Assembly (NCBI RefSeq): GCF_003054265.1
Contig: NZ_QBKT01000002.1
Span: forward strand, 558,001 to 622,000
DNA length: 64,000 nucleotides
Reading direction: 5' to 3'
Source: Kordia periserrulae
GTDB lineage: Bacteria; Bacteroidota; Bacteroidia; Flavobacteriales; Flavobacteriaceae
Both the position numbers and the translations under genes were made by a program. The notes beneath the pieces are model-generated. The model was not told where the DNA came from, did no database searches, and saw only the letters and a program-made list of their open reading frames with translations. Positions 42,270 to 62,963 of the stretch are shown here, piece after piece. Every line of letters starts with the position of its first letter. The first letter of the stretch is position 1.

Positions 42270-42274
42270 AAAGA

Positions 42275-43147: not shown

Positions 43148-43227
43148 TGACAAATAAATATCCCTAAACGTAGGTACTCATTGTACACCTCAATTTTTGT
43201 ATATTTAAAAAACAAAAGTAAAATCGT

Positions 43228-46023: not shown

Positions 46024-46138
46024 AAAGGGGAAAAACACCCATAAAAAAAGGATTTCAACGGTTTCATAAATCCACAAGTATTCTTTTATTTATGCTGCTA
46101 TAACGCGCAGCATCTGCGTGTATCATAATTTCAATATC

Positions 46139-47443
46139 ATGACTACAGAACTCATAGACTATATAAAACAAGCGGTGCGATTTCGTTTGGCAGAAGTTTC
46201 AGGAAGCGACGAAACCATTGATTTCCCAACGTTTGACTTTGCCAATGACGATTCGGAATTTTCCAAATTTGTAACGGAAAACAACTTTCAAATCTATGAA
46301 ATACTGATTTTGCTGCTTGCCATGTTGCCATACATTGCACCAGGTTTTTTAACCAGCATTCTCTCCGAATACTTTCCAGAAGGAAGTGATTTTCCTGAAT
46401 TTGGAGGTGTAAAAGGCAAACAATATCGCGGTATTCTTCCAACGGGCGAAACGGCTATTTTTATTGTGGTTGGGACGAATTATAGAGCGCGAAATTTTAT
46501 CATTTCTATTTTTAATGAAGAACATGCTTTTGCTAAAAAATCAATTTTACGCTTGAGTGATGTGCCTGAAGGCGAACCGAAAATCAGCGGAACGTTATTG
46601 TTAGATTTTGAATACGTAGAACTATTTGTATACGGCTCAATTTCCAAGCCAAAACTCAGCCAAAATTTCCCAGCAGAATTGTTAGAAACGCAACTCGAAT
46701 GGGACGATTTAGTACTGAATGAAAAAACACTCAAAGAAGTCAACAATGTGCTCGTTTGGATGGAACACAACAATACGCTGCTCAACGATTTTAATATGGT
46801 TGACAAAATAAAACCAGGCTACAAAGTCATGTTTTTTGGTGCACCAGGCGTCGGAAAAACGCTCACTGCCAGTTTGATGGGAAAACACACAGGAAAAGAC
46901 GTCTATCGCATCGATTTGTCATTAGTCATCTCAAAATATATTGGAGAAACCGAAAAAAATCTTTCCAATCTCTTTAACAAAGCCAAAAACAAAGACTGGA
47001 TTCTCTTCTTTGACGAAGCAGACGCCATTTTTGGAAAACGTACAGGCGTTCGCGATGCGCATGACAAATACGCCAACCAAGAAGTATCATACTTACTACA
47101 ACGCATTGAATCGCATTCAGGATTGGTGATTTTAGCATCTAACTATCGCAGTAATATCGACAAAGCATTTACGAGAAGATTTCAATCCATCATCGATTTT
47201 GAAAGTCCAGGAATTCCGGAGCGCTTAGAACTTTGGCAAAAATACATTCCAGAAGCGTTTATGTCGGAAGAAATTAATCTTCAAGAACTTTCAGAAACCT
47301 ATGAAGTTACAGGTGCAAACATTGTCAATATTGTGCAATATGCTTGTTTGCAAGTCTTAGCAGAAGGTGGCACGCAATTGACCAATGAAATTTTGGAGAA
47401 TGCAATTCGTAGGGAATTTATCAAGGAAGGGAGAATGGTATAG
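46139..47443 (+). CDS. eCIS AAA+ ATPase (Pvc15-like)
   Basis: A 434-residue AAA+ ATPase starting at ATG 46139. The N-terminal ~200 residues form a cluster-specific domain. The ATPase core has Walker A FFGAPGVGKT (~240), Walker B ILFFDEADAIFG (~292), sensor SNYRSNID and arginine-finger region FTRRFQSIIDF (~340). A Pvc15-like ATPase is a hallmark of eCIS loci and is thought to help load or unfold cargo. It closes the cluster and is transcribed in the same direction, after a 115-bp gap. Confidence 0.9.
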   Translation: MTTELIDYIKQAVRFRLAEVSGSDETIDFPTFDFANDDSEFSKFVTENNFQIYEILILLLAMLPYIAPGFLTSILSEYFPEGSDFPEFGGVKGKQYRGILPTGETAIFIVVGTNYRARNFIISIFNEEHAFAKKSILRLSDVPEGEPKISGTLLLDFEYVELFVYGSISKPKLSQNFPAELLETQLEWDDLVLNEKTLKEVNNVLVWMEHNNTLLNDFNMVDKIKPGYKVMFFGAPGVGKTLTASLMGKHTGKDVYRIDLSLVISKYIGETEKNLSNLFNKAKNKDWILFFDEADAIFGKRTGVRDAHDKYANQEVSYLLQRIESHSGLVILASNYRSNIDKAFTRRFQSIIDFESPGIPERLELWQKYIPEAFMSEEINLQELSETYEVTGANIVNIVQYACLQVLAEGGTQLTNEILENAIRREFIKEGRMV

Positions 47444-47806: not shown

Positions 47807-49345
47807 ATGCTTAAAAAAGTTTATGGAAGTGCCGTTTTTGGAATTGAAGCTACCACAATCACTGTGGAAGTGAATATGGTAAAAGGAATAGGTTATCACT
47901 TGGTAGGTTTGCCCGATAATGCCATTCGTGAAAGCAATTACCGAATTGCTTCTGCACTGCAAAATAACGGCTACAAAATTCCTGGAAAAAAAATCACCAT
48001 TAATATGGCGCCTGCCGATTTACGAAAAGAAGGCAGCGCGTACGATTTAACCTTAGCGTTGGGAATTTTAGCAGCGTCCAATCAAATTCAGTCTGAAAAT
48101 TTGGAAAACTATTTGATAATGGGCGAATTATCGCTAGACGGAAGCTTACAGCCCATTAATGGCGTGTTACCAATTGCAATTAAAGCGCGTGAAGAAGGGT
48201 TTAAAGGCTTTATTCTACCAGAACAAAACGCCAAAGAAGCCGCTGTCGTCAACAATTTGGAAGTCTATGGTGTACAAAACATTAAGCAAGTCATTAATTT
48301 CTTTGATGCTGGCGAACCCTTAGAACAAACGATTATTGACACACGCGCAGAATTCCTAAAAAACTTAGCCTTTCCCGAATTTGATTTCTCAGATGTAAAA
48401 GGGCAGGAAAGCATCAAACGCTGTATGGAAATTGCGGCGGCTGGCGGACATAACATCATTTTGATTGGACCACCAGGTTCGGGAAAAACGATGTTGGCAA
48501 AGCGCTTGCCATCTATTTTACCGCCACTAACGTTACACGAAGCTTTAGAAACAACTAAAATTCATTCAGTGGTTGGAAATATTAAAGATAAATCAGGATT
48601 GATTTCCGAACGACCATTTCGAAATCCGCATCATACAATCTCCGACGTTGCTCTAGTGGGCGGAGGAAGCTATCCACAACCAGGAGAAATTTCGTTAGCA
48701 CATAATGGTGTGTTGTTTCTGGATGAATTACCTGAGTTTAAACGTAGCGTCTTAGAAGTTATGCGGCAACCGTTGGAAGATAGAGAAGTCACGATTTCGC
48801 GTGCACGATTCACCATTACCTATCCAAGTAGTTTTATGTTGGTGGCAAGTATGAATCCAAGTCCGAGTGGATTTTTCAATGATCCAAATTCGCCAATGGC
48901 AGCGTCTCCGATGGAAATGCAACGCTATATGGGCAAAATTTCTGGCCCTTTGTTAGACAGAATTGACATTCACATAGAAGTGACACCAGTTCCTTTTGAG
49001 AAACTTTCAGAAGAACGCAAAGGCGAAACCAGTGCTGAAATTCGTCAACGCGTTATCAAAGCACGAGAAGTACAAACGAAACGTTTTCAAGATTCAGAAA
49101 TTCTACATTACAATGCACAAATGAACACGAAGCAAATTCGGAAGTATTGCAAATTGGATGCTGAAGCCTTGAATTTACTCAAAAATGCCATGGAACGATT
49201 GAGTTTATCCGCAAGAGCATATGACAGAATTTTAAAAGTAGCAAGAACCATTGCCGATTTAGCTCAAGAAACAGATATTTCACCCAATCACATTGCAGAA
49301 GCTATTCAATATCGAAGTTTGGATAGAGAAGGTTGGTTGGGATAA
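47807..49345 (+). CDS. yifB: YifB/ComM-family Mg-chelatase-like AAA ATPase
   Basis: A complete 512-residue YifB/ComM protein, a helicase-like AAA+ family that promotes branch migration during natural transformation (ComM) in studied species. The N-terminal Lon-like fold shows [20 protein letters not shown] and [12 protein letters not shown]. Walker A is [22 protein letters not shown] (~220), Walker B is [11 protein letters not shown] (~300), and [12 protein letters not shown] lies near 345. The last 13 codons and stop are repeated at 56685-56726, so the 3' end has served as an insertion point for the 7.3-kb segment that follows. The gene itself is intact. Confidence 0.95.
49304..49345 (+). 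repeat. Left copy of a 42-bp direct repeat (yifB 3' end)
   Basis: Last 13 codons (Ile500 to Gly512) and stop of yifB. The same 42 bp occur at 56685-56726 with 39 identities. The three differences (TAT/TAC, GGA/GGG, TAA/TAG) are all silent in the yifB frame. This is the left border of the putative island. Confidence 0.9.
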
Positions 49346-49410
49346 TTAAAGAATACTTAGGGTATTTCCCTTCATAAATTTCAGTTTGGACTTTTGAAAA
49401 TCGTTATTTT

Positions 49411-49806
49411 TTTTCGACCAATAGAAAGGAACTCACAATTGGAAATCCTAACGATAATAAATATCAATTGAAGAATTGTTTGTTACTAGGCGACTTAGGC
49501 TACCTATCTGCTTAATATCAAATCAATTTGTTTGAGAGTCAAAATATTAGACTAGAAACACCGAAGAGAAAGAATCAAAATGATTATAGAGAGCAACCTT
49601 ATATTTTTAGAAAATCTAGAAAAAGAATCGAAACGCTATTCTCGCAATTGTGTGATCAATTCATGATAATAAGCAACTACGCTAAATCTTTCGATGGATT
49701 TAAAAACAGAGTTCTATCTAAAATTACTGCAATGACCGTTATTCAATGCATTAATAAATTTGAGTTTAACAGAAATATCAATAATCTAAAAATTAATATT
49801 ACCTAA
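49411..49806 (+). pseudogene. IS982-family transposase remnant
   Basis: A broken reading frame encodes the C-terminal third of an IS982-type DDE transposase. LLGDLGYLSA is followed by an in-frame TAA at 49513-49515 where an acidic residue would be expected. The frame then continues through YQINLFESQNIRLETPKRKNQ, RKRIETLFSQLCDQFMI and FKNRVLSKITAMTVIQCINKF. The N-terminal two-thirds, including the first catalytic Asp, are missing. Just after the frame, TGCACAACGGGTTA (49808-49821) may be the right terminal inverted repeat; no left partner is seen. It marks past IS activity at the island's left edge. Confidence 0.85.
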
Positions 49807-50057
49807 ATGCACAACGGGTTATTTAACTAAATTACAATACTGAAGTCATTCTGTAACGAATTTCATATATGGAAGATCTGTTTATAATGATTTTGTTCAT
49901 ACCTAACAAATCAAGTTTTGATAACATTTTAAAAGTTTTAAGTAGGTTAATTATGTCTAGTAAATAGGTTTTTACGCTTTTTTTTTGAAATAAAACCTTA
50001 TAAAAAATACGGTAAAAACATAAGTGTGTTATATATAAAATTCTGATATTGAATTTA

Positions 50058-52433
50058 ATGAAAAACAAGCTAAACCTTATATTATTACTTTTAATTTTTC
50101 CGTTTGTTGTACATTCTCAAAAAAAAATATTTGGAGTTGTCAAAGATTCTTTGGGATTTGTAGAATTTGCCAATGTTGTGTTATATGATACTGATAAAAA
50201 AATCATTTCAGGAACAACAACTAATAAAAATGGAATATTTGAGCTGACCACATCAAAAGTCGATTGTGAGCTTATGATTTCATATATTGGGTATGTTTCT
50301 CTAACGAAAAAGGTTACTATTAAAGAAGATACCAATATAGGAGAGATTTTCATCTTCCGAGATAAAGACCTAATAAAGCAAGTAGAAATTTTAGTAAGAA
50401 AACCACGAATTATACAAAAAGTAGATAGGATTGAATTCAACATAGAAAATTCAGTACTTACAGACGGCAGTTTATGGAATGTCATAAGTAAATCTCCTGG
50501 TATTGTGACTTCAAATAATGGCGATATACAAATGTTCGGAAAAAACAATGTCTTAATTTACATTGATAACAAACCTATTCGATTAGGTGGTGAAGAATTG
50601 ATGAACATGCTTGAAAGTATGCGTGCTAGCAATATAAGTAGTTTAGAAATTATAGATACGCCACCTTCTAATTATGATGCTCAGGGTGGAGGAGTTATTA
50701 ACATAAAGACAAAACGTAAAAATGATCTTGGTATTAATGGAAGTATAAACTCTCAAGCTAAATTTTCTATTTTCCCTAAATTTAATAATGGCTTTTCTCT
50801 TAATTATCTTAAAAGGAAAGTTGGAATTTATTCAACCTATAATTATGGATCAGGTACTAATAATGGTAGAAAAGAAAGAGAAACTAATTATTTCCAACAA
50901 AGTGATTTGATTTCTATTTGGGATGAAAATACAAATATAAAATCCAGAGATAATACACATAATTTCAGGTTGGTTATAGATTTAGCATTAACTAAAAGAA
51001 GTAGTCTTAGTTTTACCTCATATGGAAATATTCCTGATTCCGATAGAAGAACCATTACAAATACAGATATTTTAAATGTATCCAATTCTTCAAACGATTT
51101 TTTAAATACATTAAATAATACACTGTCAACTTCAGAGAATATATCTAATAGTCTTTTTTATGAATTCAAAATTGATAAAAGAGATCGTTTAAACATTGAG
51201 ATTGAAAATACAAATTACAATTCTAAATCTAATGAAAAAGTCATAACAGATGGCTCTAACTTTTTCGCTACAGATGATTTCAGGTCAGATTCCAAACAAA
51301 AAATAAATATTACGTCAGCAAAAATCGATTATGTAAATATTATTAGTGCTTCTAAAATAGAAATGGGGATTAAAGCAGCTTTTACCGATTCAGAAAATAA
51401 TCTTAATTACTTTAATATAAATGGTTCAGCGGAAACCTTTGACTCTTTAAGGAGTAATGATTTCTTATATAGTGAAAACACTTATGCAGCATATTTTAGC
51501 TATGCCAGGAATTTTGAAAAAATTTCTATAAAGTTAGGACTACGTGGTGAATTTACTGAAACCGAGGGAGATTCTAAAACATTGAATCAAGTCAATGAGT
51601 TTGATTATTTCAGGTTGTTTCCTACATTTTATATAACTTATAATTTAAGGAAAAGATCTTCTTTGCGGTTTGCCTATGGAAGAAGAATTTCTAGACCCAA
51701 TTTTGGATTGTTAAATCCTTTTAGATTTTACTATAGTCCTTTTAGTTTTATTGAAGGAAATCCATTTCTACAACCTTCATTTACTGACAATTTTAGCTTT
51801 ACTTATTCCTACAGGGGAAAACATTTTTTTAAATACTATTTCAATTATACAGACAATCCTTTTACACAAATATCATTTCAAGATGGAGAAAATGAAACAT
51901 ATAGATATTTTGCGGTAAATCTAAATAATAACCTTTCCACTGGGTTATCAGTATTTTCAAAAATTGATATGAAAAAATGGTGGATTTTGAATTTGCAGTG
52001 GAATTCATATTACAAACGAAACAGTTTTATTTCACAACAAAATACAACAATCAACAATTCAAATTGGAATTTAGACATATTCATTACAAATAATTTCTAT
52101 GTATCAGAGAAAACATCTTTAGAGTTGTTTACGAGATATTTATCCCCCAAAATACAAGGAGCTTTTGAATTAAAATCCAGACACGAAGTTTCATTTGGAG
52201 TTTCTCACAAAATTTTACAGAATCGTGCTAGATTATCGATTTACGTTGGAGATATTTTTAATGGTTCAGATTTTAACTTGGAAACTAGATATGAAGATCA
52301 AGATCAAGTCTTTTTTGATGATAGAGAAAATCAATTTTTGAGATTTGGATTTTCGTATAGATTCGGAAATTCTAAAAGAAATAAAGAATCTCAAAGAAGA
52401 GATGATATTCAAAATGAAAAAGAACGAATTTAA
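50058..52433 (+). CDS. Outer-membrane beta-barrel receptor (TonB-receptor-like) of the RiPP locus
   Basis: A 791-residue outer membrane protein. ATG 50058 gives a clean signal peptide (LNLILLLLIFPFVVHSQ). A carboxypeptidase-regulatory-like domain (~22-105, VKDSLGFVEFANVVLYD) follows, then a plug-like domain (~115-230, ending in the DAQGGGVINIKTK motif) and a 22-strand-type barrel rich in Tyr/Asn/Phe to the end. It belongs to the outer_membrane_beta-barrel group that accompanies bacteriocin-type peptide loci in Bacteroidetes. Base composition is markedly more AT-rich than yifB. It may export or recapture the mature peptide, or act in immunity; inference. Confidence 0.85.
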   Translation: MKNKLNLILLLLIFPFVVHSQKKIFGVVKDSLGFVEFANVVLYDTDKKIISGTTTNKNGIFELTTSKVDCELMISYIGYVSLTKKVTIKEDTNIGEIFIFRDKDLIKQVEILVRKPRIIQKVDRIEFNIENSVLTDGSLWNVISKSPGIVTSNNGDIQMFGKNNVLIYIDNKPIRLGGEELMNMLESMRASNISSLEIIDTPPSNYDAQGGGVINIKTKRKNDLGINGSINSQAKFSIFPKFNNGFSLNYLKRKVGIYSTYNYGSGTNNGRKERETNYFQQSDLISIWDENTNIKSRDNTHNFRLVIDLALTKRSSLSFTSYGNIPDSDRRTITNTDILNVSNSSNDFLNTLNNTLSTSENISNSLFYEFKIDKRDRLNIEIENTNYNSKSNEKVITDGSNFFATDDFRSDSKQKINITSAKIDYVNIISASKIEMGIKAAFTDSENNLNYFNINGSAETFDSLRSNDFLYSENTYAAYFSYARNFEKISIKLGLRGEFTETEGDSKTLNQVNEFDYFRLFPTFYITYNLRKRSSLRFAYGRRISRPNFGLLNPFRFYYSPFSFIEGNPFLQPSFTDNFSFTYSYRGKHFFKYYFNYTDNPFTQISFQDGENETYRYFAVNLNNNLSTGLSVFSKIDMKKWWILNLQWNSYYKRNSFISQQNTTINNSNWNLDIFITNNFYVSEKTSLELFTRYLSPKIQGAFELKSRHEVSFGVSHKILQNRARLSIYVGDIFNGSDFNLETRYEDQDQVFFDDRENQFLRFGFSYRFGNSKRNKESQRRDDIQNEKERI

Positions 52434-52527
52434 AAACATATACGATATAAATAACCTTTTGCAGAAGCATCTACCTGTGGGTGTCAAATCGCAGGACATT
52501 AATTAATCAACTTTAAATTTTTTTATT

Positions 52528-52716
52528 ATGAAAAACAAATTTAGACTAAAAATCAAAGATGAGTCTTTGGATTTGAATGCATTCAAAAATGATGCGATTC
52601 AAGATTTAAGTGGCTCTTTAAAAGGAGGAATTAGAGCTTGGGAAGAAGCTTGGGGAGAGTCTTGGGGAGAATCCTGGGCAGAGTCTATCAGACTACCAGT
52701 TAGATCAGACATCTAA
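52528..52716 (+). CDS. RiPP precursor peptide with Trp-x3 repeat core
   Basis: A 62-residue peptide. A charged leader (residues 1-34) ends in a double-glycine site (SLKGG, G33-G34), suited to the C39 peptidase encoded downstream. The predicted 28-residue core holds four tryptophans at 38, 42, 46 and 50, i.e. W-E-E-A-W-G-E-S-W-G-E-S-W-A-E-S, then an Arg/Pro tail. The coding DNA shows a 12-bp tandem repeat over the same stretch. It lies 69 bp before the radical SAM gene, the usual substrate position. W-x-x motifs are what three-residue-cyclophane-forming enzymes modify, so a chain of Trp crosslinks is predicted. No known precursor family is recognised. Confidence 0.85.
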   Translation: MKNKFRLKIKDESLDLNAFKNDAIQDLSGSLKGGIRAWEEAWGESWGESWAESIRLPVRSDI

Positions 52717-52785
52717 AGAAAATTAAATTAAATGAGAGAAATCGTTTCTATTAGAGGGTCGATTTCTCTCTTAAAAATCACTATC

Positions 52786-54042
52786 ATGAAAGTCAATACC
52801 TTAGTTTTAAAAGTGGCTAGTAGATGTAATCTCAATTGTACATACTGTTATATGTATAATGTAGGAGATAATACCTACTTGAAACAACCAAAATTTATGT
52901 CTTATAAAACTGTAGATGCTATATTAGATAAGATTATAATCCACCATAAAAGAAAAAAACTAAAGCAATTTAATTTTGTTTTTCATGGCGGAGAACCTTT
53001 GTTGATGAAAAAAGAGTTCTTTTATTATTTCATAGAAAATGCAAATAAACGTTTGAGAGATGAAAATAATATTACATGTATTTTTCAACTTCAAACAAAT
53101 GGGATTTTGCTTACCCAAGAATGGTGTGAAATATTTAACGAACTAGACATTTCCATGGGAATCAGTCTGGATGGAAGAAGAGAAGATAACGATAAGTACA
53201 GAGTGGGTCATAAAGGAGAAGGTTCATACGACGATATTTTAAAAGGTTTTGATATTGCAAAGAAATTTTCAAAGAAAAGACCTGGATTCTTGTGTGTAAT
53301 TAATATTGATGCTGATCCAGAGGATACTTATCACCATTTTAAAGAATTAAATATTATTCCAGGAGATTTTTTAATTCCGTATGCAACTACGGATAAACCA
53401 CCTCAAAAAAAATCAAAAGTTTTAGGTATCTCTGAAGCAACTCCTTATGCAGATTGGCTTATTAGAATTTTCGATATTTGGAGAAAAGAATCAATAGATG
53501 AACGTTTAAACATTAAAGTTTTTAATACATTAATAAAATTGATTTTGGGTAAAGACTCAAGTTCGGATAATTTTGGTAATACCGAAAATTCAGTATTATT
53601 AATTGAAACCGATGGAGGAATTGAATCTATTGGAGCACTAAAACTATGTGGTAATGGATTTACCAAACAGGGTGCAAATATCAACACTCATACTTTTGCG
53701 CAGGCTCTTGAAACAAGTTTGGCAAAACTATATCATCAAGCACATCTTATGTTGCCAAAAAAATGTACTGCATGTCCAATAAACGAAGTCTGTGGAGGTG
53801 GACACATTGCACATAGATACAGTAAAGAAAATGGATTTGACAATCCATCCATATATTGTAATGATTTTATGAAATTAATTTTGCATATTCAAAATGCCCT
53901 TGTTGATAGTTTTTCTGATGAATATTTGGAAAAAAATGAATTTGAAAAGGTTAGCTACTCAGAAGTAAGAGAATATATGGATAATTTGGATTTAGATAGT
54001 TTGACTGTTCCTGAATATAAAAAAGATTTGGAAACATTTTAA
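52786..54042 (+). CDS. SPASM-type radical SAM peptide maturase (FxsB/XyeB/GrrM-like)
   Basis: A 418-residue radical SAM enzyme. The ATG at 52786 is preferred because the core strand VNTLVLKVASRCNLNC follows at once; the upstream ATG at 52732 adds 18 unconserved residues. The [4Fe-4S]-SAM site is C14-N-L-N-C18-T-Y-C21. The FHGGEPLLM segment follows (~64). The C-terminal auxiliary-cluster region has LCGNG, KKCTACPINEVCGGGHIAHRYS, then GFDNPSIYC, which is the pattern of the cyclophane-forming FxsB/XyeB/GrrM group. It should install C-C crosslinks on Trp residues of the adjacent precursor. Confidence 0.9.
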   Translation: MKVNTLVLKVASRCNLNCTYCYMYNVGDNTYLKQPKFMSYKTVDAILDKIIIHHKRKKLKQFNFVFHGGEPLLMKKEFFYYFIENANKRLRDENNITCIFQLQTNGILLTQEWCEIFNELDISMGISLDGRREDNDKYRVGHKGEGSYDDILKGFDIAKKFSKKRPGFLCVINIDADPEDTYHHFKELNIIPGDFLIPYATTDKPPQKKSKVLGISEATPYADWLIRIFDIWRKESIDERLNIKVFNTLIKLILGKDSSSDNFGNTENSVLLIETDGGIESIGALKLCGNGFTKQGANINTHTFAQALETSLAKLYHQAHLMLPKKCTACPINEVCGGGHIAHRYSKENGFDNPSIYCNDFMKLILHIQNALVDSFSDEYLEKNEFEKVSYSEVREYMDNLDLDSLTVPEYKKDLETF

Positions 54043-54061
54043 TAAAGTATAGAAAGCGTTG

Positions 54062-56266
54062 ATGATTTTTAAAAAAAAGTTTCCTTTGTATATACAGCTA
54101 AATACAGCTGATTGTGGCATAACATGCCTACGAATGATAAGTAAATATTATGGGAAAACATTTTTAACAAATGATTTTTTGGATTATAAAATTGTTGATA
54201 GAACAGGAATATCAGTAAAAAATATGGGAAAACTTGCTGAGAAATTTGGCTTTGAGCAAATTCCAGTACAAGTAAACTATGAAAAGCTTTTACAATCTCC
54301 GAAACCATCAATTCTCTATTGGACACAGAATCATTATGTAGTACTATATAAAATTTCCAAAAAAAAGGTAGTTATCGCGGATCCTGCTTTAGGATTGCTA
54401 ACGTATAATAAAGAAGAATTTTTGAAATTATGGACAATCGAAGAAAATAAAGGTGTTGCAATACTTTTAAAACCTACAGAAGAATTTTATAATTTAAAAG
54501 ATAATAATCAAAGGTTTAAATATAATTTTAAATTTATATTTCAATATTTTAAACTTTACAAAGTTCATCTCTATCAAGTTATTATAGGTTTACTTATCGG
54601 TGGAATACTTGAAATTTTATTTCCTTTTTTCACAAAATCAATAGTTGATTTCGGAATAGCTAATAAGGATATCGGTTTTTTAAAAATTATATTACTAGCT
54701 CAAATAGTTTTTTTTATCAGTAGTGTACTGATTGCATTTTTGAGACGTAGAATTTTACTCCATGTTAGTGCTAGAGTGAATGCATTGATAATTTCTGATT
54801 TTTTAATAAAACTATTCAAACTACCTATCAAATATTTTGACACAAAAGTTATAGGAGATTTATCTCAGCGCATACGCGATCATGAAAAAATAGAACGATT
54901 TATAAGTCAAAATTTATTGTCAAGTTTTTTCTCTCTATTCAAGTTATTTGTATTAAGTCTAGTACTTTTCATTTTTAATAAAGTCATATTTTTAGTATTG
55001 CTTGCAGGAGCATCTATCGAAATATTATGGACAAACTATTTTTTAGATAAGATAGCTATATTTGAAAATAAACGCTTCGCTTTATATGCAGAAGATCAAG
55101 AAAAAATTTTCGAATTATTATCAAGTGTCCAAGAAATAAAACTTAATAATATTGAAACTAAAAAAAGATTTGAATGGGAAGAAATACAAGTAAAATTAAT
55201 GGATTTGTCAATCGCTCGATTAAAACTTGATCAATCTAGGGAAGGTGGAGAACAATTTTTTTCCTATGCACGAAACATTTTTATCATATTTTTATGCGCT
55301 TACTTTGTAATTAAAGGCTCAATGACGTTGGGAATTATGCTAGCAATAGTATTCATCTTAGGACAAATTAATTCACCAATAAAGCAACTAATAAATTTGT
55401 TTGTTGAAGGGCAAATAGCAAAGTTGAGTCTAGAAAGATTAACAGAAATTCATAATGGAAAGGAAGATGAAGTTTTAATAAAACAACAAATCACACAAAA
55501 AAATTATGGAAAAATTCATGATGATATAAAACTACAAAACGTGAATTTTTCATATTCACATAGTGATGAGCAATTGGTATTAAAAGATATAAATTTGAAT
55601 ATTCCTAAAGGAAAAACCACTGCGATTGTTGGCGTGAGTGGAAGCGGTAAAACTACATTACTAAAATTACTTTTAAAGTTTTATGCTCCATTTTCAGGAA
55701 AAATTTCCCTTGGAGAAAACAATTTTGAAAATGTCGATGTGTCAACTTGGAGAGATTATTGTGGAGCAGTGCTACAGGATAGTTTCATTTTTTCAGACAC
55801 TATAAAAAATAATATCGGTTTGTGCGAAAAAGATAACAACGATATTGAAGATGAAAAGATAATAAAAGCAGCTAAAATTGCAAATATCTACCGTTTTATT
55901 GAAAGCCTTCCACAAAAGTATGAAACAAAAGTAGGTAGCAATGGAGAAGGTTTAAGTGAAGGGCAAAAACAACGATTATTAATTGCAAGAGCTGTATATA
56001 AAAACCCGAATTTTTTGTTTTTTGATGAAGCGACTAATTCTTTAGATGCTGAAAATGAAAAAGTGATTGTTGATAACTTGAATTCTTTTTTTAAAGGAAA
56101 AACCGTTTTAGTAGTAGCGCATAGATTGAGTACTGTTCGAAATGCAGATCAAATTATTGTTTTGGATAACGGTAAAATTTATGAAATCGGAAATCACAAA
56201 GAATTAATCGATAAAAAAGGAAAATATTTTGAACTTATAAAAAATCAATTAGAACTTGGAAACTAA
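54062..56266 (+). CDS. Peptidase-containing ABC transporter (PCAT, C39)
   Basis: A 734-residue bacteriocin-type exporter that trims the leader after Gly-Gly and pumps the core across the inner membrane. ATG 54062 is three bases after a TTG. The N-terminal C39 peptidase has Cys18 in NTADCGITCLRMI, His in NHYVVLYK (~97) and Asp in VIADPALGLL. Six membrane helices span ~165-450. The ATPase has Walker A VGVSGSGKTTLLK (~525), signature LSEGQKQRLLIARA (~632), Walker B FLFFDEATNSLD and AHRLST. All catalytic residues are present. It overlaps the next gene by 11 bp. Confidence 0.94.
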   Translation: MIFKKKFPLYIQLNTADCGITCLRMISKYYGKTFLTNDFLDYKIVDRTGISVKNMGKLAEKFGFEQIPVQVNYEKLLQSPKPSILYWTQNHYVVLYKISKKKVVIADPALGLLTYNKEEFLKLWTIEENKGVAILLKPTEEFYNLKDNNQRFKYNFKFIFQYFKLYKVHLYQVIIGLLIGGILEILFPFFTKSIVDFGIANKDIGFLKIILLAQIVFFISSVLIAFLRRRILLHVSARVNALIISDFLIKLFKLPIKYFDTKVIGDLSQRIRDHEKIERFISQNLLSSFFSLFKLFVLSLVLFIFNKVIFLVLLAGASIEILWTNYFLDKIAIFENKRFALYAEDQEKIFELLSSVQEIKLNNIETKKRFEWEEIQVKLMDLSIARLKLDQSREGGEQFFSYARNIFIIFLCAYFVIKGSMTLGIMLAIVFILGQINSPIKQLINLFVEGQIAKLSLERLTEIHNGKEDEVLIKQQITQKNYGKIHDDIKLQNVNFSYSHSDEQLVLKDINLNIPKGKTTAIVGVSGSGKTTLLKLLLKFYAPFSGKISLGENNFENVDVSTWRDYCGAVLQDSFIFSDTIKNNIGLCEKDNNDIEDEKIIKAAKIANIYRFIESLPQKYETKVGSNGEGLSEGQKQRLLIARAVYKNPNFLFFDEATNSLDAENEKVIVDNLNSFFKGKTVLVVAHRLSTVRNADQIIVLDNGKIYEIGNHKELIDKKGKYFELIKNQLELGN

Positions 56267-56681
56267 TAAATTATTAGAAAATAGATCTGAAAACGTAAAA
56301 AATCGAATGAAAAACATTCCGGGGTTTTTGTTACGTTATGGTATATTAATACTGTCATTTTTTATTGTAATTATCTTTTTTCTTAGTTCATCAATTGAAT
56401 TCAATTTTAATCAAAAGATAAACTCAAGTACTAAAATCATTTCTAACACCGAGCTAAATATAGTAAACCCTTCTATAAATGATTATCAAAATTTAAAGTA
56501 TATCAAATTTAATGACAATTTGATTCCGATTGTAGATGTAAGTCTAAGCCATGATAAAAAAAATCTCTACATAAAATTACAAGAACATAATCATCAATTA
56601 AACTTAATATCAGAGAATAACGCTATAAAATTCATAGTAAAAAAAAATATCCTTCAATTAATTTTTAAAGAATTTTTCTAA
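56256..56681 (+). CDS. Short membrane-fusion-like protein (HlyD N-terminus only)
   Basis: A 141-residue protein with a TTG start overlapping the transporter gene (an ATG lies 17 codons in). Its order is a short polar N-terminus, VKNRMKNIPGFLLRYG, one membrane helix (LILSFFIVIIFFL), then ~95 residues. This is the opening of the HlyD/NHLM-type membrane-fusion proteins that pair with PCAT exporters, but those run to ~400 residues with coiled coil and barrel. It stops 3 bp before the right 42-bp repeat, so the rest may have been lost when the island boundary formed, or it may be a small natural partner. Confidence 0.6.
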   Translation: METNKLLENRSENVKNRMKNIPGFLLRYGILILSFFIVIIFFLSSSIEFNFNQKINSSTKIISNTELNIVNPSINDYQNLKYIKFNDNLIPIVDVSLSHDKKNLYIKLQEHNHQLNLISENNAIKFIVKKNILQLIFKEFF

Positions 56682-56684
56682 TCA

Positions 56685-56726
56685 ATTCAATACCGAAGTT
56701 TGGATAGAGAAGGTTGGTTGGGGTAG
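56685..56726 (+). repeat. Right copy of the yifB 3'-end repeat (island border)
   Basis: These 42 bp encode the same 13 residues plus stop as the end of yifB (39/42 identical, all changes silent) but have no start and no upstream coding sequence: a detached gene end. The preceding 20 bp do not match yifB. This is the pattern left by insertion of an element that carries its own copy of the target gene's 3' end, or by recombination with a related strain's yifB. Confidence 0.88.
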
Positions 56727-57187
56727 CATTGATAATCATAAAATACATCTAACACACTTTTTCTAATTACATTCACATATTATCGAGTTACTGTATCTTT
56801 TTAAGAATTAAAAAATTCACAATGCTATCATTTTTCACGAATAATTATATTTTTTGAAATAAAAAACTTACTAAATATAGTGTAAAAGATTACTTTTTTG
56901 TTTTAAAGACTAAAAGTATATCAAATTAGTAGACTAAAGTGTTTTAACTTTTTTCACATAGTTTAAACGTTTTATGGCTTTTTTGTTATTTAAATATTAA
57001 CAAGTTAAATAGTTTATGGTTTAACCGTAATCATTTTACCTTTCTGCCTTTTTTATACGTTTTTAGATATTTTTCAATAAAAAAAACAGCTATAATTGTA
57101 TATGAAAAATGATACATCAATTCAGCTTATACAGAATTGATCTAAAAGTAATTTTAGAAATTCCCCCCGCTTAAAACTTTAAAATAA
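56727..57187. other. AT-rich intergenic region before the NRPS locus
   Basis: A 461-bp region with no gene. It is very AT-rich, with T- and A-runs, and a C6 run (~57163-57168) just before the folded leader described next. It probably contains the promoter for the antiterminator and NRPS genes; no confident -33/-7 pair is assigned. Confidence 0.5.
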
Positions 57188-57225
57188 GAGCACCTCATGT
57201 GACTGAGGGAAGCGAAGCTTTGCTC
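57188..57225 (+). ncRNA. Candidate structured leader RNA (three-way junction) before the antiterminator gene
   Basis: Three short helices pair with almost no unpaired bases: GAGCA (57188-57192) with TGCTC (57221-57225), CCTCA (57193-57197) with TGAGG (57204-57208) around a 6-base loop, and AAGC (57210-57213) with GCTT (57217-57220) around GAA. It lies 35 bp upstream of the UpxY-like gene. Such compact junctions rarely arise by chance, but I do not recognise a known family. It could be a recruitment or attenuation element for the NusG-like protein. Confidence 0.5.
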
Positions 57226-57260
57226 AAAAATTAAATTAATCAGAAGAAAAGTTTATAAAA

Positions 57261-57785
57261 ATGGATTGCAAATATTCTGGCTGGCATGTTTTGTATGTGA
57301 AGTCTCGTCATGAAAAGAAAGTTTTAGATGCTTTAACTAGATTGTCTCTTGAAGCATTTCTACCGTTAGTAAAAACAAAGAAGAAATGGAGTGATCGCAT
57401 AAAGATTGTCCAATTGCCTCTCATTCCTTCTTATATATTCGTAAACTTAAAATCACCGCAGGATTTCCATAAGGCATTATCAGCCAATGGAGCATGTGCT
57501 TATATCCGATTTGGAAGTTCGTACGCAAAAGTTCCTGAAAGGGAAATCAATAAGATAAAACTTTTGGTTGGCTCTGAAGACGTGATGAATTTGGAAGTAG
57601 ATGATCGAGTTCCTAGAGTTGGAGAATTTAGGAAAATTGAGTTTGGCTCTTTAAGTGGTCTGCGATGTGAAGTTCTTAAAGTAAATAATATCAATAAAAT
57701 AGTTGTAAGAATAGAACAATTAAAACAAAACATTACTGCGATTCTTCCTTCGTATTATTTTGAAAAAGAACCTGTTAGTGCTTAA
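57261..57785 (+). CDS. UpxY/RfaH-type transcription antiterminator (NusG paralogue)
   Basis: A 174-residue NusG-like protein. The NGN domain begins at once (GWHVLYVKSRHEKKVLDALTRLSLEAFLPLVKTKKKWSDRIKIVQLPLIPSYIFVNL), and the C-terminal ~50 residues form the KOW region (GEFRKIEFGSLSGLRCEVLKV). In Bacteroidetes, UpxY-type proteins are cis-acting elongation factors placed at the head of long capsule or secondary-metabolite operons. Here it precedes an NRPS gene by 480 bp on the same strand, so it is the likely dedicated processivity factor for the biosynthetic operon. It is much shorter than a housekeeping NusG with insertions. Confidence 0.9.
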   Translation: MDCKYSGWHVLYVKSRHEKKVLDALTRLSLEAFLPLVKTKKKWSDRIKIVQLPLIPSYIFVNLKSPQDFHKALSANGACAYIRFGSSYAKVPEREINKIKLLVGSEDVMNLEVDDRVPRVGEFRKIEFGSLSGLRCEVLKVNNINKIVVRIEQLKQNITAILPSYYFEKEPVSA

Positions 57786-58264
57786 TTTTGAGTGAGGTCT
57801 TACGCTGTGAAAATAGCGGAAGAGATGTGTTGAAATCACAATTTTCACGGTCAATTAGTGAAATAATGAAGTCATACCTATAAAGCTTTAGCGTTTTATT
57901 TTTTCTATGAAAAATAATTTCATTACTCGAAAATGTTTTCCTGTCAAATTAAGATTATTTTAAATCAGGAACCAATCTGTTAAAGCAGATAACCATCATT
58001 GGAAGTATTGAGTCAACTACTTTGGGGCAAGCCCACGAAGCATTTAGCAGAAACGATTAAAAACATTTCATGCAAGCGTCAGAGCATTTTTAATTTAGAT
58101 TATCAAGTAAAATTAAAAATCTCCTTCTTTTTGAAAAGGCTTATTTCTATATCTACAGTCAAATTATTGAAGAAAATTTACATGTAAAAGTAACAACTAA
58201 GTGTAAAGAAAATCAAAGCTTCACTGCTACAATATAACCAATCGTATTTACAATAACATCCATC
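57786..58264. other. Leader region between the antiterminator and the NRPS gene
   Basis: This 479-bp region has no convincing gene; a 62-codon frame at 57999-58187 lacks any motif. It contains an inverted repeat, GTGAAAAT (57807-57814) with ATTTTCAC (57841-57848), right after the antiterminator gene. A long untranslated leader between a NusG-like gene and its target operon is the expected place for pausing or recruitment signals. Confidence 0.45.
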
Positions 58265-61200
58265 ATGAAAGAACTTATTGCAGAAATTAAATCAAGGGCT
58301 ATTCAAATAGCTGTTGTTGATGGTGAGTTAGAAGTAATATCAGAAGATGAGCTGGATACTGCATTTATTCAAAAGATAAAACAGCACAAACAAGACTTGA
58401 TTCATCTTCTTAAAGAATACAATGTAGAAGGAACTCAAAACGAGTTAATACCTGTTGAAATTCAAAAAAATTATCCGCTTACAAACGCACAAAAACGTTT
58501 ATGGACAGTTTGTCAAATAGACGATAATTCCAAAGCATACACTATTTCGAGCATAGAATTTTTACAACATGTAGATTTTGAAATCTTTAAAAAGTCTGTT
58601 GCAAGTGTGATAGAACGACACGAATCACTACGAACTGTTTTTAAGGAAGATGAAAATGGAGAAATCCGTCAGTGGATTTTGCCTTTTGGCAGCATACATT
58701 TTACAGTTTCGCTTATTGACTGTACAACAAAAGATATTGCGGAAAATGTTGCTAAAAACCATATTGAAACCGAGAAATACAAGGCATTTGATTTAGAAAA
58801 TGGGCCTTTAATGCGCACTTCTCTGTATCAGCTTTCCTCGAAAAATTTCCTGTTTCATATCAACATGCATCATATCATTAGTGATGCTATTTCGATGCAC
58901 ATATTGTTGAATGATGTCATGGTGTGCTACGCGGCTTATCAACAAAACAAAACTCCGCAATTAGCTCCTTTACCAATTCAATACAAAGATTATGCAGTTT
59001 GGCAACTAAATCATAAAGAATCTTCTACATATACTACCCATCAATCATATTGGTTAAAGCGGTTTTCTGGAGATTTGCCCGTGTTAGATTTGGGCTCGAA
59101 AAATATTCGTCCTAAAATCTTAACCAATAACGGAGCTATTTTACATACCTTAATCGATACTAGTGTTACGCAAAAAGCAACTGAATTTGTTGCTGAAAAT
59201 GGCGGAACACTTTTTCTGTTTTTACTAAGTGCATGGAATGTGCTTTTGACAAGATATGCTTCTCAAAATGAAATCATTATTGGAACTACGGTGTCAGATA
59301 GAAATCATGTTGATTTAAAAAATCAGGTTGGTTTTTACATGGAGGCATTGCCTTTACGTACCAAAATAAATTGGGAGACAAACTTCAAAACCTTATATAA
59401 ACAAATAACGGAACATACGCTGTTAGATTTTTTACATGATAGTTATCCGTTTGATGACTTGGTGAGCGATTTGAAATTGGAGAGAGATGTGAGCAGAAAT
59501 CCACTATTTGATGTCATGTTTACACTAGATGAAGATGTTCCTGCATCAGTTGCCATTACTCCAGAAAAAGAAACTTCAATCCACGAAACAACAACTCAAA
59601 CAAGTTTTTCTAAGTATGATTTGGATATCAAAATACGCAAAGTAGAAGGAGAACGTTTACGTCTTGGTATAACATATAATAAAGATATCTATAAAGAAAA
59701 TTTTATTGAGCAATTAATGACGAATTATTGTCAATTGCTAGAAGTGTTACTAAGTCAAACCACGGAGACATTAGGAAAAATAAACTTTCTCATTGAAAGC
59801 GAAACCACAACATACATTGAAGAATTCAACAAACAAACCAATGCTTTTCCTGAAATTGAGTTCGTTACGACACTTTTTGAAAAAAATGCACGAAAGCATA
59901 GCAATTCCATTGCATTAGCAGTTGGAAGCGAAACACTTACGTACAGAGAACTTGATGAAAAATCAAATCAATTTGCGAATTATTTACTCAGTAAAGGAGT
60001 TTCCAAAGGAGATTATGTGCCGTTGTATATAGAGCGTTCGTTGGAAATGGTTGTAAGCATTTTGGGAATCTTTAAATCGGGTGCTGTTTACATTCCAATT
60101 GACGTTCACCTTCCTAAAGAGCGCATGCAATATATTCTGAATGATATTCAAGCAAATTATTTGGTCACAAAACCCGCGCTGGAGAACAACATAGTTCCAT
60201 CAAGCGAAATGCAAATTTTACATGTTGATTTTGAACAATTGGCTTTGATATCTTCAGGGTATCCAAACAAAAAAATATCAGGCGATTCAGAAGCATATAT
60301 TATTTATACATCAGGAACTACAGAAAAACCGAAAGGTGTTGTTTTAAGTCATCAAAACTTAGGAACGTTTTTGATGAATGTGGAAGAACATTTCAAAAAT
60401 ATTTCTAGTCAACCACTCTTGGCTTCAAGTGGCTTTGATATTTTCTTATTTGAATTATTTAATCCGTTTCTTTCAGGAGGAACAGCAATATTGCTAAAAG
60501 ATACACAAGTTAGGGACTTAGACTATTTGCTAAGTGTATTAGAAAATGTCGCGGCTTTTCATGCAGTTCCCGTATTGATGACGCAAATAGTGCAATTCAT
60601 AAAGCGAAATAAAATTAAAGACAAGTATGCCAATGTAAAAGAATTATACATAGGTGGAGATGAAGTACCAACGCATGTTTTAGAAGATATGTACGAAGTA
60701 TTTCCCAATGCCACCATTCATGTATTTTATGGCCCTACAGAAGGAACCGTTTTTGTGACTACCAAAAACTACGAACGCAAAAATACAAACTTTAAAGGTG
60801 CTGTAATTGGAACTCCGAATATCTGTTCTAAAATTTTCATTCTTGACGATTACGAAAATGCGGTTCCATTTGGAGTTACAGGCGAACTCTGTATAGGTGG
60901 TTTTCAAGTAGGGAAAGGCTATTTGAACAATCAAAAATTAACATCTGAGAAATTCATTCAAAATCCTTTTCAACCAACAGAAAAAATATACAAAACAGGC
61001 GATTTAGCTCAATGGCTTCCTGATGGAAATATCACTTTCGTGGGAAGAAGAGACAATCAAGTCAAAATCAGAGGACATCGAATTGAACTAGAAGAAATTG
61101 TAAAACGCTTGCAATCGAAATCTGAAATTGACAAAGCAATTGTACTTGTAAAAGGAATACAGGAACAAAAAGAATTGGTAGCATACATCGTAAGTTCAGA

Positions 61201-61627
61201 AACCATAGATGTTTTAGAATTAAGAAGTTTCTTATCGAATACGTTGCCCAACTATATGATTCCTTCGTACTTTATAAGATTACAAGAATTTCCACAAACA
61301 GCAAACGGAAAGCTAGACAAGCAAGCATTGCCAAATCCAGCAGATGTAGACCTAAATGCTACTGCGAAATATATAGCACCTACCAACGATATTGAAGAAA
61401 CGCTGGCAACTCTTTGGCAAAACATACTACATCATCACGGAAAAGTGAGTATCAATGACAATTTTTTTAGTCTAGGAGGCGATAGTATAAAAGCAATCCG
61501 AATCATTTCGGATATCAATAAAAAATACGGTGTCAAAATAAACGTAGGATTCTTTTTTCACCAACCAACAATAACATCACTAGCATCAGCAATTTCCAAC
61601 CAACACAAACTAACGGTACAACCTTAG
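58265..61627 (+). CDS. Single-module NRPS (TubC docking-C-A-PCP), predicted hydroxyphenylglycine-activating
   Basis: A 1120-residue synthetase. A TubC-like docking domain (1-55, ending in KQHKQDLIHLLKEYN) is followed by a condensation domain with HHIISDA (202-208; final Gly replaced by Ala). The adenylation domain has SGTTEKPKG (683-691) and YGPTE (822-826), and the PCP has GGDS with the phosphopantetheine Ser1074. There is no epimerase or thioesterase. Pocket residues by eye are D725, I726, F729, H766, Y795, G797, F821, V829, F830, K1016, i.e. DIFHYGFVFK. This is close in its first four positions to the hydroxyphenylglycine code. The docking domain implies a partner NRPS/PKS elsewhere, and the lack of a release domain implies further modules. 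Confidence 0.88.
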   Translation: MKELIAEIKSRAIQIAVVDGELEVISEDELDTAFIQKIKQHKQDLIHLLKEYNVEGTQNELIPVEIQKNYPLTNAQKRLWTVCQIDDNSKAYTISSIEFLQHVDFEIFKKSVASVIERHESLRTVFKEDENGEIRQWILPFGSIHFTVSLIDCTTKDIAENVAKNHIETEKYKAFDLENGPLMRTSLYQLSSKNFLFHINMHHIISDAISMHILLNDVMVCYAAYQQNKTPQLAPLPIQYKDYAVWQLNHKESSTYTTHQSYWLKRFSGDLPVLDLGSKNIRPKILTNNGAILHTLIDTSVTQKATEFVAENGGTLFLFLLSAWNVLLTRYASQNEIIIGTTVSDRNHVDLKNQVGFYMEALPLRTKINWETNFKTLYKQITEHTLLDFLHDSYPFDDLVSDLKLERDVSRNPLFDVMFTLDEDVPASVAITPEKETSIHETTTQTSFSKYDLDIKIRKVEGERLRLGITYNKDIYKENFIEQLMTNYCQLLEVLLSQTTETLGKINFLIESETTTYIEEFNKQTNAFPEIEFVTTLFEKNARKHSNSIALAVGSETLTYRELDEKSNQFANYLLSKGVSKGDYVPLYIERSLEMVVSILGIFKSGAVYIPIDVHLPKERMQYILNDIQANYLVTKPALENNIVPSSEMQILHVDFEQLALISSGYPNKKISGDSEAYIIYTSGTTEKPKGVVLSHQNLGTFLMNVEEHFKNISSQPLLASSGFDIFLFELFNPFLSGGTAILLKDTQVRDLDYLLSVLENVAAFHAVPVLMTQIVQFIKRNKIKDKYANVKELYIGGDEVPTHVLEDMYEVFPNATIHVFYGPTEGTVFVTTKNYERKNTNFKGAVIGTPNICSKIFILDDYENAVPFGVTGELCIGGFQVGKGYLNNQKLTSEKFIQNPFQPTEKIYKTGDLAQWLPDGNITFVGRRDNQVKIRGHRIELEEIVKRLQSKSEIDKAIVLVKGIQEQKELVAYIVSSETIDVLELRSFLSNTLPNYMIPSYFIRLQEFPQTANGKLDKQALPNPADVDLNATAKYIAPTNDIEETLATLWQNILHHHGKVSINDNFFSLGGDSIKAIRIISDINKKYGVKINVGFFFHQPTITSLASAISNQHKLTVQP

Positions 61628-61666
61628 TTTCGGCATTTTGCAAACAAACAAAGCTTACTTTTACTA

Positions 61667-62941
61667 ATGACAAACAAATCACTCAACAAGCTCGAAGAAG
61701 ATGTAATGGGCTTCCTAAACGAAGTACAACTCAATTTTCCAGAAGCTATTTCGATGGCTTCTGGAAGACCCGAGGAATCTTTTTTCGATTTGCAAAACCT
61801 TCAAGAATATATCAACACGTTTGTAAATTTTAGAAGTAAGGAGACGAACGTTTCCACCGAAGCCTTTTTGAGAAGTTTGGGACAATACAACCGAACCAAA
61901 GGAATCATCAACGATATTGTAGCCAAATATCTTAAAAATGACTATCAAATTGATTGCTCACCAGCGGATATCGTTGTAAATGTAGGTTCGCAAGAAAGTA
62001 TGGTGTTGTCGTTACTTTCGCTGATGAATCGTGATGAAGATGTGTTTTGTGTAGAAGATCCTTCCTATGTGGGAATCAGTCACTTTGCGTTGATTAACGG
62101 TTACGAAACCGCTCCAATAGCTGTAGATGCAGAAGGAATCAATTTGGAAGCATTGGAAAAAACCATTGAAGCAACCAAACAAAAAGAAAAATGCGTCAAA
62201 GCCGTATATGTCATTCCCGATTTTCAAAACCCTACAGGAATTCGCACACCGATTGAAAAGCGTAAAAAGCTGTTGCAAATGGCAGCAACGCACAATTTCA
62301 TGATTATTGAAGACAATGCCTACGGAGATTTTGTATTTGAAGACGTAGCCTATCCAACGTTGAAATCGCTTGATACAGAAGGAAATGTAATCTATCTGCA
62401 CTCGTTTTCTAAAAGTTTGCATCCATCCTTGCGAATGGGCGTGATGGTTGCAGACAAAGTGTTTGAAGACGGTACAAAACTGAGCGATATTATTGCCAAA
62501 ATAAAAGGCTACACAACCGTAAATTCACCTGCAATTCCACAAGCAATTTTAGCGGGAGTGCTATTAAAAAATAACTATTCACTTCAAAAATACAACGAAG
62601 AAAAGTGTCGCAACGTACGTCAAAAACGAGATAGTGTATTGGCATCATTGACCAAGTATATCAACGCTTCCAAAGAAACAAAACTGCAATCAGTTACATG
62701 GAATGTTCCTGAAGGCGGCTACTTTTTAACCTTGACATTACCTTTTAAAATCACCAAAGAAGACGTTACTGCTTGTGCAAAAAACTATCACGTCATCTTT
62801 ACACCGATGTCTTTCTTTCATCTCTCTAAAGGAGGTGAAAATCAAATCCGAATAGCATACAGTTATGTCAAAATAAATCAAATAGAAACAGCGATTGAAA
62901 ACTTGGTACATTTTCTCGCTACAAAAATTACCAATACATAA
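61667..62941 (+). CDS. PLP-dependent class I/II aminotransferase (HpgT-like candidate)
   Basis: A 424-residue fold-type I aminotransferase. Landmarks are ISMASGRPEESFFD (~25), NVGSQESMVLSLLSLM (~105), the PDFQNPTG motif (~187), the cofactor-binding EDNAYGDFVF (~215) and the PLP lysine in LHSFSKSLHPSLRMG (~250). The C-terminal Arg is in NQIRIAYSYVK. It resembles MocR-type domains without a DNA-binding part. Encoded 39 bp after an NRPS and 22 bp before an HmaS/HPPD-family enzyme, it probably converts a 2-oxo acid to the amino acid used by the NRPS. HpgT in glycopeptide pathways turns 4-hydroxyphenylglyoxylate into hydroxyphenylglycine. Confidence 0.85.
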   Translation: MTNKSLNKLEEDVMGFLNEVQLNFPEAISMASGRPEESFFDLQNLQEYINTFVNFRSKETNVSTEAFLRSLGQYNRTKGIINDIVAKYLKNDYQIDCSPADIVVNVGSQESMVLSLLSLMNRDEDVFCVEDPSYVGISHFALINGYETAPIAVDAEGINLEALEKTIEATKQKEKCVKAVYVIPDFQNPTGIRTPIEKRKKLLQMAATHNFMIIEDNAYGDFVFEDVAYPTLKSLDTEGNVIYLHSFSKSLHPSLRMGVMVADKVFEDGTKLSDIIAKIKGYTTVNSPAIPQAILAGVLLKNNYSLQKYNEEKCRNVRQKRDSVLASLTKYINASKETKLQSVTWNVPEGGYFLTLTLPFKITKEDVTACAKNYHVIFTPMSFFHLSKGGENQIRIAYSYVKINQIETAIENLVHFLATKITNT

Positions 62942-62963
62942 TACTTATTAACCTTATTACACC

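Follow-up and report, generated by a model that had tools for sequence, protein, structure and literature searches.

Operon and precursor peptide

The window, a stretch of 64,000 nucleotides of the Kordia periserrulae genome (contig NZ_QBKT01000002.1, positions 558,001 to 622,000), carries at 50049–56681 an operon of five genes that, judged from its sequence, very probably makes a multi-cyclophane peptide of the triceptide type, a ribosomally synthesized and post-translationally modified peptide (RiPP). Encoded in order on the + strand are an outer-membrane beta-barrel protein, a precursor peptide, a SPASM radical S-adenosylmethionine (SAM) enzyme, an ATP-binding cassette (ABC) exporter with a C39 peptidase domain and a 141-residue membrane protein (Table 1); the intergenic distances, from the barrel gene to that of the short protein, are 94, 15, 16–19 and −11 bp. 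The co-directional arrangement given in a preliminary description of the region was thus found, as was the exporter (Peptidase_C39, PF03412, E 2.6e-30, plus ABC domains); the outer-membrane protein of that description is a PF14905 barrel (E 2.7e-92), encoded just upstream of its start at 52528.

The precursor, with the core IRAWEEAWGESWGESWAESIRLPVRSDI, agrees with the peptide first described: an open reading frame (ORF) of 62 codons, a GG cleavage site and tryptophans at positions 38, 42, 46 and 50. Each Trp has Glu at i+2, and the peptide contains no Cys. The sequence LKGG occupies residues 31–34; the GG at 33–34 leaves a core of 28 residues. Synonymous codons vary among the repeat units (GAA/GAG, TCT/TCC), which suggests that the peptide pattern was kept and not the DNA alone. 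A search of the own genome at E up to 10 gave no second copy of the precursor, which is therefore single-copy. Most of 16 chosen precursors of related clusters have in common a leader start F-[KR]-[LF] and an F-x-N stretch. The GG leader together with the C39-ABC protein places the peptide among predicted substrates of peptidase-containing ABC transporters (PCAT), and the four W-x-E motifs, with the i+2 enrichment in the family, give it the aromatic-x-x core motifs of a triceptide. Two other RiPP types were considered and rejected: thioether chemistry (sactipeptide/ranthipeptide) on account of the absence of Cys in the precursor, and graspetide-type Glu-Ser esters, since Pfam gave no ATP-grasp domain for the proteins that the operon encodes.

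Table 1: Coordinates of the operon, of the predicted crosslink motifs and of adjoining features in the window.
Feature	Position	Strand	Remark
Outer-membrane beta-barrel protein, PF14905	50049–52433	+	N-terminal carboxypeptidase-regulatory-like domain, TonB-receptor-like plug region; alternative ATG 50058
RiPP precursor of 62 aa (GG leader, core of 28 residues)	52528–52716	+	ORF
Leader peptide, residues 1–34, C-terminal LKGG	52528–52629	+	
Predicted crosslink motif 1, W38-E39-E40	52639–52647	+	from family i+2 statistics
Predicted crosslink motif 2, W42-G43-E44	52651–52659	+	from family i+2 statistics
Predicted crosslink motif 3, W46-G47-E48	52663–52671	+	from family i+2 statistics
Predicted crosslink motif 4, W50-A51-E52	52675–52683	+	from family i+2 statistics
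SPASM radical SAM enzyme, FxsB/YhhB/ChlB cyclophane-synthase side	52732–54042	+	internal ATG 52786 possibly the true start
C39-peptidase ABC exporter (PCAT)	54062–56266	+	ATG start; alternative TTG 54059
Short membrane protein; may be a reduced HlyD-like adaptor serving the exporter	56256–56681	+	from position in related clusters
DDE transposase fragment (PF01609)	49528–49806	+	E 2.5e-6; about 240 bp before the barrel gene
Low-GC stretch containing the operon	49001–58000		27.5–29.8% GC in 1.5-kb bins

Assignment of the radical SAM enzyme

The gene behind the precursor encodes a SPASM radical SAM enzyme with the motifs CNLNCTYC, CGGGHIAHRYS and GFDNPSIYC, the last two as originally noted. Among the best 25 of 63 families of an NCBIfam scan, the highest scores were given by YhhB (NF041707, 346.8 bits) and FxsB (TIGR04269, 320.4 bits), both named as cyclophane-forming; lower scores were obtained with XyeB (180.4, also cyclophane-forming), sulfatase maturase (179.5), DynA (156.8), GrrM/OscB (118), the ranthipeptide enzyme PapB (111) and DarE (106.7 bits). 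An assignment to YhhB or FxsB proper was rejected, the scores lying under the curated cut-offs; the family search that had been proposed at the outset gave cyclophane-forming families as the nearest models, with both cut-offs missed. By sequence, the nearest solved structure was ChlB (E 1.4e-56; with a profile, E 3.6e-100). The AlphaFold model of the enzyme (pLDDT 85.6) likewise had ChlB as its best Foldseek match (E 9.8e-31, TMt 0.91), and the anaerobic sulfatase maturase came next after the ChlB chains. The SPASM enzyme adjacent to the precursor is thus related to characterised cyclophane synthases, as in triceptide clusters. Eight cysteines are invariant in 24 of 24 aligned enzymes, three belonging to the radical SAM cluster (C32, C36, C39) and five others (C306, C345, C348, C354, C376).

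A different radical SAM chemistry (thioether formation, epimerisation or sulfatase-type oxidation), with the Trp repeat in a structural role, is improbable. The sulfatase maturases are recognisable relatives in bit score and in fold, and the missed cut-offs would be in line with it; however, the precursor lacks Cys, the YhhB and FxsB scores are nearly twice that of the sulfatase maturase, ChlB is the best structure, and the aromatic rule described below holds over the relatives examined. Grouping of the enzyme with a family of other chemistry had been named in the preliminary description as the result that would speak against cyclophanes; it was looked for, and the cyclophane models came out ahead.

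In a tree of the enzymes (94 rows; locus L113 not in tree) two Aquimarina enzymes (L005, L009; support 96/92) come out as sisters of the window enzyme. The enzymes of L073–L076 belong to the ten-row group of the window (95/86), and that of L051 stands outside it. The backbone of the tree is weak, and a warning of meeting long branches applies to these same forks; for this reason no number is claimed for the times that Trp arrays arose.

Two more such enzymes are encoded in the own genome, at C5:280593–281789 (L002) and C2:79329–80552 (L003), with quite different precursors, one of a Y-D-K/F-L-L type and one of a W-H-E-R type that contains Cys; each type is found again in the genus. Clusters L006, L007, L015, L016 and L067 contain two or three enzymes of this family each; in L067, two enzymes are accompanied by two precursors with HSRSHVN..W[DE]RS cores.

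Predicted crosslinking sites

Relatives came from two sources, a pattern scan over genome contigs, which gave 33 loci, and samples of genomes. Genomes with a match numbered 3/299 in the family, 12/395 in the order, 6/395 in the class and 8/11 in the own genus (own genome included); further samples gave 1/12 in the order of genome G930, 35/173 in the genus of G344, 24/146 in the genus of G582 and 8/395 in the phylum (L065 enzyme as query). These samples were searched with differing thresholds and overlap one another; the own genome contributes to the count of any sample that includes it.

The residue at i+2 of the aromatic amino acids was found to be strongly constrained. In 46 hand-chosen cores, one of [QERKND] stands there in 111 of 150 cases, compared with 31% after shuffling, and none of 2000 shuffles reached that level; Trp taken by itself gives 24 of 26 (20 of 22 without the window), and no polar excess was observed at offsets +1, +3 and +4. 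A rule-based pick of 52 non-redundant ORFs (last 30 residues) gave 110 polar residues at i+2 of 178, a level that none of 1000 shuffles attained, with 24 of 32 for Trp; its controls were free of excess: first 30 residues, 47/141; antisense ORFs, 65/323. Sixteen chosen cores, near-duplicates among them, hold 35 Trp that are followed by a residue at i+2, and this residue is N, R, E, K or Q in every case. Two plasmid-borne peptides annotated as YhhA terminate in SYDRMHHRHNRS, and for a YhhB of different accession Arg is the reported crosslinking partner of Tyr and His (PMC11002830, in its available part); for these reasons the i+2 rule points at real acceptors. On the strength of the family-wide statistics, the predicted acceptor in the window peptide is the Glu of W-E-E, W-G-E, W-G-E and W-A-E; the four W-x-E motifs are probably the crosslink sites, with Glu as the unusual acceptor. 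Glu as the acceptor of the window/Aquimarina clade also fits the Aquimarina sister precursors, each of which has two F-x-E motifs directly after GG (FAE, FRE; FPE, FGE; FPE, FAE).

Homologous Trp-repeat precursors beside related enzymes, a check suggested in the preliminary description, were found. Arrays with a spacing of four and polar i+2 residues occur, besides the window, in L051 (WGRSWGRSWGR), L113 (WSRSWSR) and L073–L076 (W-x-N, some gaps of five), which makes, with the window counted, 7 distinct loci among 126 locus records (64, 35 and 27), in which some places were fetched twice (the window included) and some lack a recognisable precursor. The uniqueness first suggested for the Trp repeat is thereby narrowed: among the loci fetched, the W-x-E array was found in the window alone, whereas Trp arrays as such recur in relatives, and ChlB has already been named a multiple cyclophane synthase. 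Among the 16 chosen cores Trp-x-Glu is likewise confined to the window; single W-x-E motifs occur in L008, L017 and L003. The search in the order of G930 yielded no further W-x-R array, its one matching genome being that already known; the ten loci of the phylum sample had all been found before and gave no new Trp array. Tyr and His arrays with this spacing were also observed, in L025/L026/L092 and L012. In L108–L111, precursor and enzyme stand alone, with W-x-N arrays, at one and the same genomic place, the flanks of which we take to be ATP synthase genes and ffh.

It is possible, with a probability well below that of the four Trp-Glu rings, that the enzyme makes fewer or other bonds, at some of the W-x-E motifs only, or from Trp to Ser/Ala or to the next Trp (i+4). 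The spacing of four residues does put Ser/Ala at i+3 and Trp at i+4, Ser or Thr stands at i+3 in 48 of 148 cases, and Glu lies outside the acceptors listed in the available part of PMC11002830. Yet the polar enrichment sits at i+2, with none at i+3 or i+4, and the spacing in relatives varies (4, 5, 6) while the residue at i+2 is one of N, R, E, K and Q throughout the 16 chosen cores. The fewer-rings part of this alternative overlaps with the formation of up to four rings, and the two estimates are not exclusive.

Barrel, exporter and accompanying genes

The barrel protein matches PF14905 and, in addition, CarbopepD_reg_2 (E 5.2e-9) and, at E 0.15, Plug; its family profile matches the plug regions of the colicin I receptor and BtuB. 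A TonB-dependent receptor consists of a plug and a 22-strand barrel. In the 33 scan loci, some of them truncated where a contig stops, an ABC gene is present in 24, an outer-membrane protein gene in 18 and both in 16. The own genome holds 18 PF14905 matches, seven of them full-length, and two of these seven are encoded directly upstream of a precursor and such an enzyme (the window; L070/L002). Of the homologues that were compared with the window barrel, the nearest four are cluster-linked (L067, L144, L066 and L145; 609.8–654.1 bits).

That the barrel is a chance neighbour outside the system appears unlikely. PF14905 is common, as the count in the own genome indicates, 15 of the 33 related loci have no barrel in reach (some contig-cut), and L148, a paralogue in the own genome whose listed stretch contains no such enzyme, scores 391.2 and so outranks the cluster-linked barrels other than the top four. 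Against this, 18 of the 33 loci have a barrel, where a density of seven per 4.7 Mb predicts about 0.02 in a stretch of 13 kb and a density based on all 18 matches predicts 0.05; the upstream position of two of the seven full-length barrels and the linkage of all four nearest homologues also argue against chance. In L150 (1415–4541) a further PF14905 barrel gene overlaps another gene, presumably that of a type II thioesterase, hinting that PF14905 barrels may also accompany other natural-product clusters.

The exporter domain searches were started at 54080, six residues inside the ATG at 54062. For the short protein behind the exporter no family was matched in Pfam or NCBIfam, HlyD included; the short protein of the preliminary description is thus present at its place, but its HlyD-like character is not reflected in a profile match. 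A protein of 140–176 aa lies behind the ABC gene in nine related clusters (L006, L012, L015, L016, L037, L066, L067, L144, L145), and a sequence search with the window protein recovers four of these nine counterparts (L066, L067, L144, L145). In L024 the same position is taken by a 238-aa protein with an HlyD_3 match (6.8e-6).

No HExxH motif is present in the window barrel, enzyme, exporter or short protein, and beta-hydroxylation is for this reason not expected for the window peptide. In the relatives L066, L144, L145, L037 and L112 (5 of 5 viewed), a protein of 354–376 aa with the motif HE[AT].H is encoded between enzyme and exporter; the three of these proteins that were scanned all gave sub-threshold TIGR04267 matches, and they are probably stand-alone alpha-ketoglutarate (aKG)-HExxH hydroxylases. 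Upstream of the barrel gene in L067 (2237–4567), and also in L025, L034, L144 and L145, a ThiF-like protein, a LuxR-type regulator and a FeeM-like acyltransferase are encoded (Pfam on L067; the other loci judged by sequence appearance).

Origin and surroundings of the operon

The operon lies in a low-GC stretch; the flanking bins, in the rest of 40001–64000, have 32.5–43.1% GC. Among the 10 other genomes of the genus no enzyme above 45% identity was found. From the low-GC stretch, the transposase fragment and the lack of a close counterpart in the genus we infer that the operon was imported. A plasmid as direct source was rejected: 21 plasmid records contain a relative, all under 60% identity.

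The same features, a low-GC stretch adjoining a transposase fragment and no close orthologue in the genus, might also be met in a decayed or silent cluster. Such a state is very improbable here, since all five frames are open, the cluster cysteines of the enzyme are intact and the residues of the repeat are kept across varied synonymous codons.

Behind the operon follow a gene for an UpxY-type antiterminator (57261–57785) and, at 58265–64000, a non-ribosomal peptide synthetase module (condensation, adenylation, carrier), an aminotransferase and a glyoxalase-fold gene, which together probably form a separate biosynthetic cluster. Upstream, the region 37938–47443 encodes proteins of 1443 and 931 aa, the latter with a GASGG stretch, together with an AAA-type ATPase; these resemble parts of an injection-type system.

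Proposed biosynthesis and function

The radical SAM enzyme would bind the leader, and in each W-x-E the 5'-deoxyadenosyl radical would abstract a hydrogen from the beta-carbon of the i+2 Glu; bonding of this carbon to the Trp indole would then give up to four strained three-residue rings spaced by single residues, with a total mass change of −8.06 Da (calculated for the core, from 3314.61 to 3306.55 Da). Hydrogen abstraction from an aliphatic residue with subsequent addition to the ring is the course described for such enzymes (PMC12026744, in its available part). The C39 peptidase of the exporter would cleave behind Gly33-Gly34, the ABC transporter, perhaps with its short partner, would export the 28-residue peptide, and the TonB-receptor-like barrel would act on it at the outer membrane in release, self-protection or uptake. 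The multi-cyclophane product proposed at the outset is in this way supported by the relationship of the enzyme and by the i+2 statistics of the family, the crosslinks themselves being predicted.

The following observations weigh against this proposal. The enzyme lies under the curated cut-offs of both YhhB (445) and FxsB (370), which none of 10 relatives reaches either; a Thr of ChlB aligns with C306 of the family, and the cluster content may thus differ; and the tree warns of long branches meeting at the forks that unite the window with Aquimarina. Among the loci fetched, an array made up wholly of W-x-E was found in no other precursor, and Glu is absent from the acceptors (Arg, Asn, Asp, Ser, Ala) named in PMC11002830, as far as its text was available. 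The offset −2 is mildly enriched in the hand-chosen cores (62/147, about 1 in 1000 shuffles) and not clearly so in the rule-based set (67/184, 52 of 1000 shuffles). As to the partners, the W-x-N loci L108–L111 have neither exporter nor barrel in their 16-kb stretches, so these two are not obligatory; of the other own-genome loci, L003 (L071) is without adjoining outer-membrane protein and ABC genes, and L002 (L070) without an ABC gene.

The product is likely to be an extracellular competition or signalling peptide. An antibacterial directed at the outer membrane is a possibility suggested by the xenorceptides; a signal taken up via the barrel is equally conceivable. More broadly, and as a tentative and rather doubtful generalisation, Trp-ladder triceptides (W-x-E, W-x-R, W-x-N; iterative enzymes; Glu, Arg and Asn acceptors) may constitute a mobile class of their own in the Bacteroidota; in many clusters the peptide would have a TonB-receptor-like barrel dedicated to it, and peptide and receptor would together serve kin signalling or contact-free competition at the outer membrane.

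Comparison with known systems

ChlB (PDB 9gm3, 9gmc) is closest to the window enzyme in solved sequence and fold and differs from it by the Thr in place of C306; the title of Ruel et al. 2025, cited in the available part of PMC12636437, describes ChlB as a radical SAM multiple cyclophane synthase. The YhhB enzymes of L141/L142 show 31–32% identity to the window enzyme; their substrates, annotated YhhA, have aromatic-x-R motifs, whereas the window combines W-x-E with a GG leader and a C39 exporter, and two annotated YhhB records are fused to an HExxH domain, unlike anything in the window operon. To the FxsB family the enzyme is related over the full domain (320 bits, under the cut-off) and with 35% identity to an annotated FxsB; the 47-aa ORF preceding the FxsB of L143 ends in FNSFIAPVK and contains no Trp, unlike the window precursor.

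XncB is reported to join Trp to the beta-carbon of Arg/Asn, and OscB to that of Asn/Asp, at i+2 (PMC11002830, available part). These motif types match the relatives L051, L113 and L073–L076; the related models score low for the window enzyme (XyeB 180, GrrM/OscB 118 bits), and the acceptor in the window would be Glu. On the darobactin/xenorceptide side the DarE and DynA scores (106.7 and 156.8 bits) are low as well. Xenorceptide A2 is described, in the part of PMC12971899 available, as adding a beta-strand to BamA; the xenorceptides and darobactin, as aryl-crosslinked BamA binders, may serve as a model for a rigid Trp ladder.

No record of a Trp-x-Glu ladder, or of a Bacteroidota triceptide with a barrel partner, was present in the literature searched, most subscription papers being outside its reach. 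Multi-ring enzymes and Trp-x-N/R acceptors are already known, and the Trp-Glu ladder looks new against these sources, which were available in part. If four adjacent Trp-Glu cyclophanes form, one small enzyme would produce an unusually rigid rod, and Glu would join the acceptors known to this report. The family offers a natural substrate set (E, R, N, Q and K acceptors; W, Y, F and H rings) for studying how one fold reads its motifs, and the co-encoded barrel makes the role of the Bacteroidota triceptides directly testable by gene removal.

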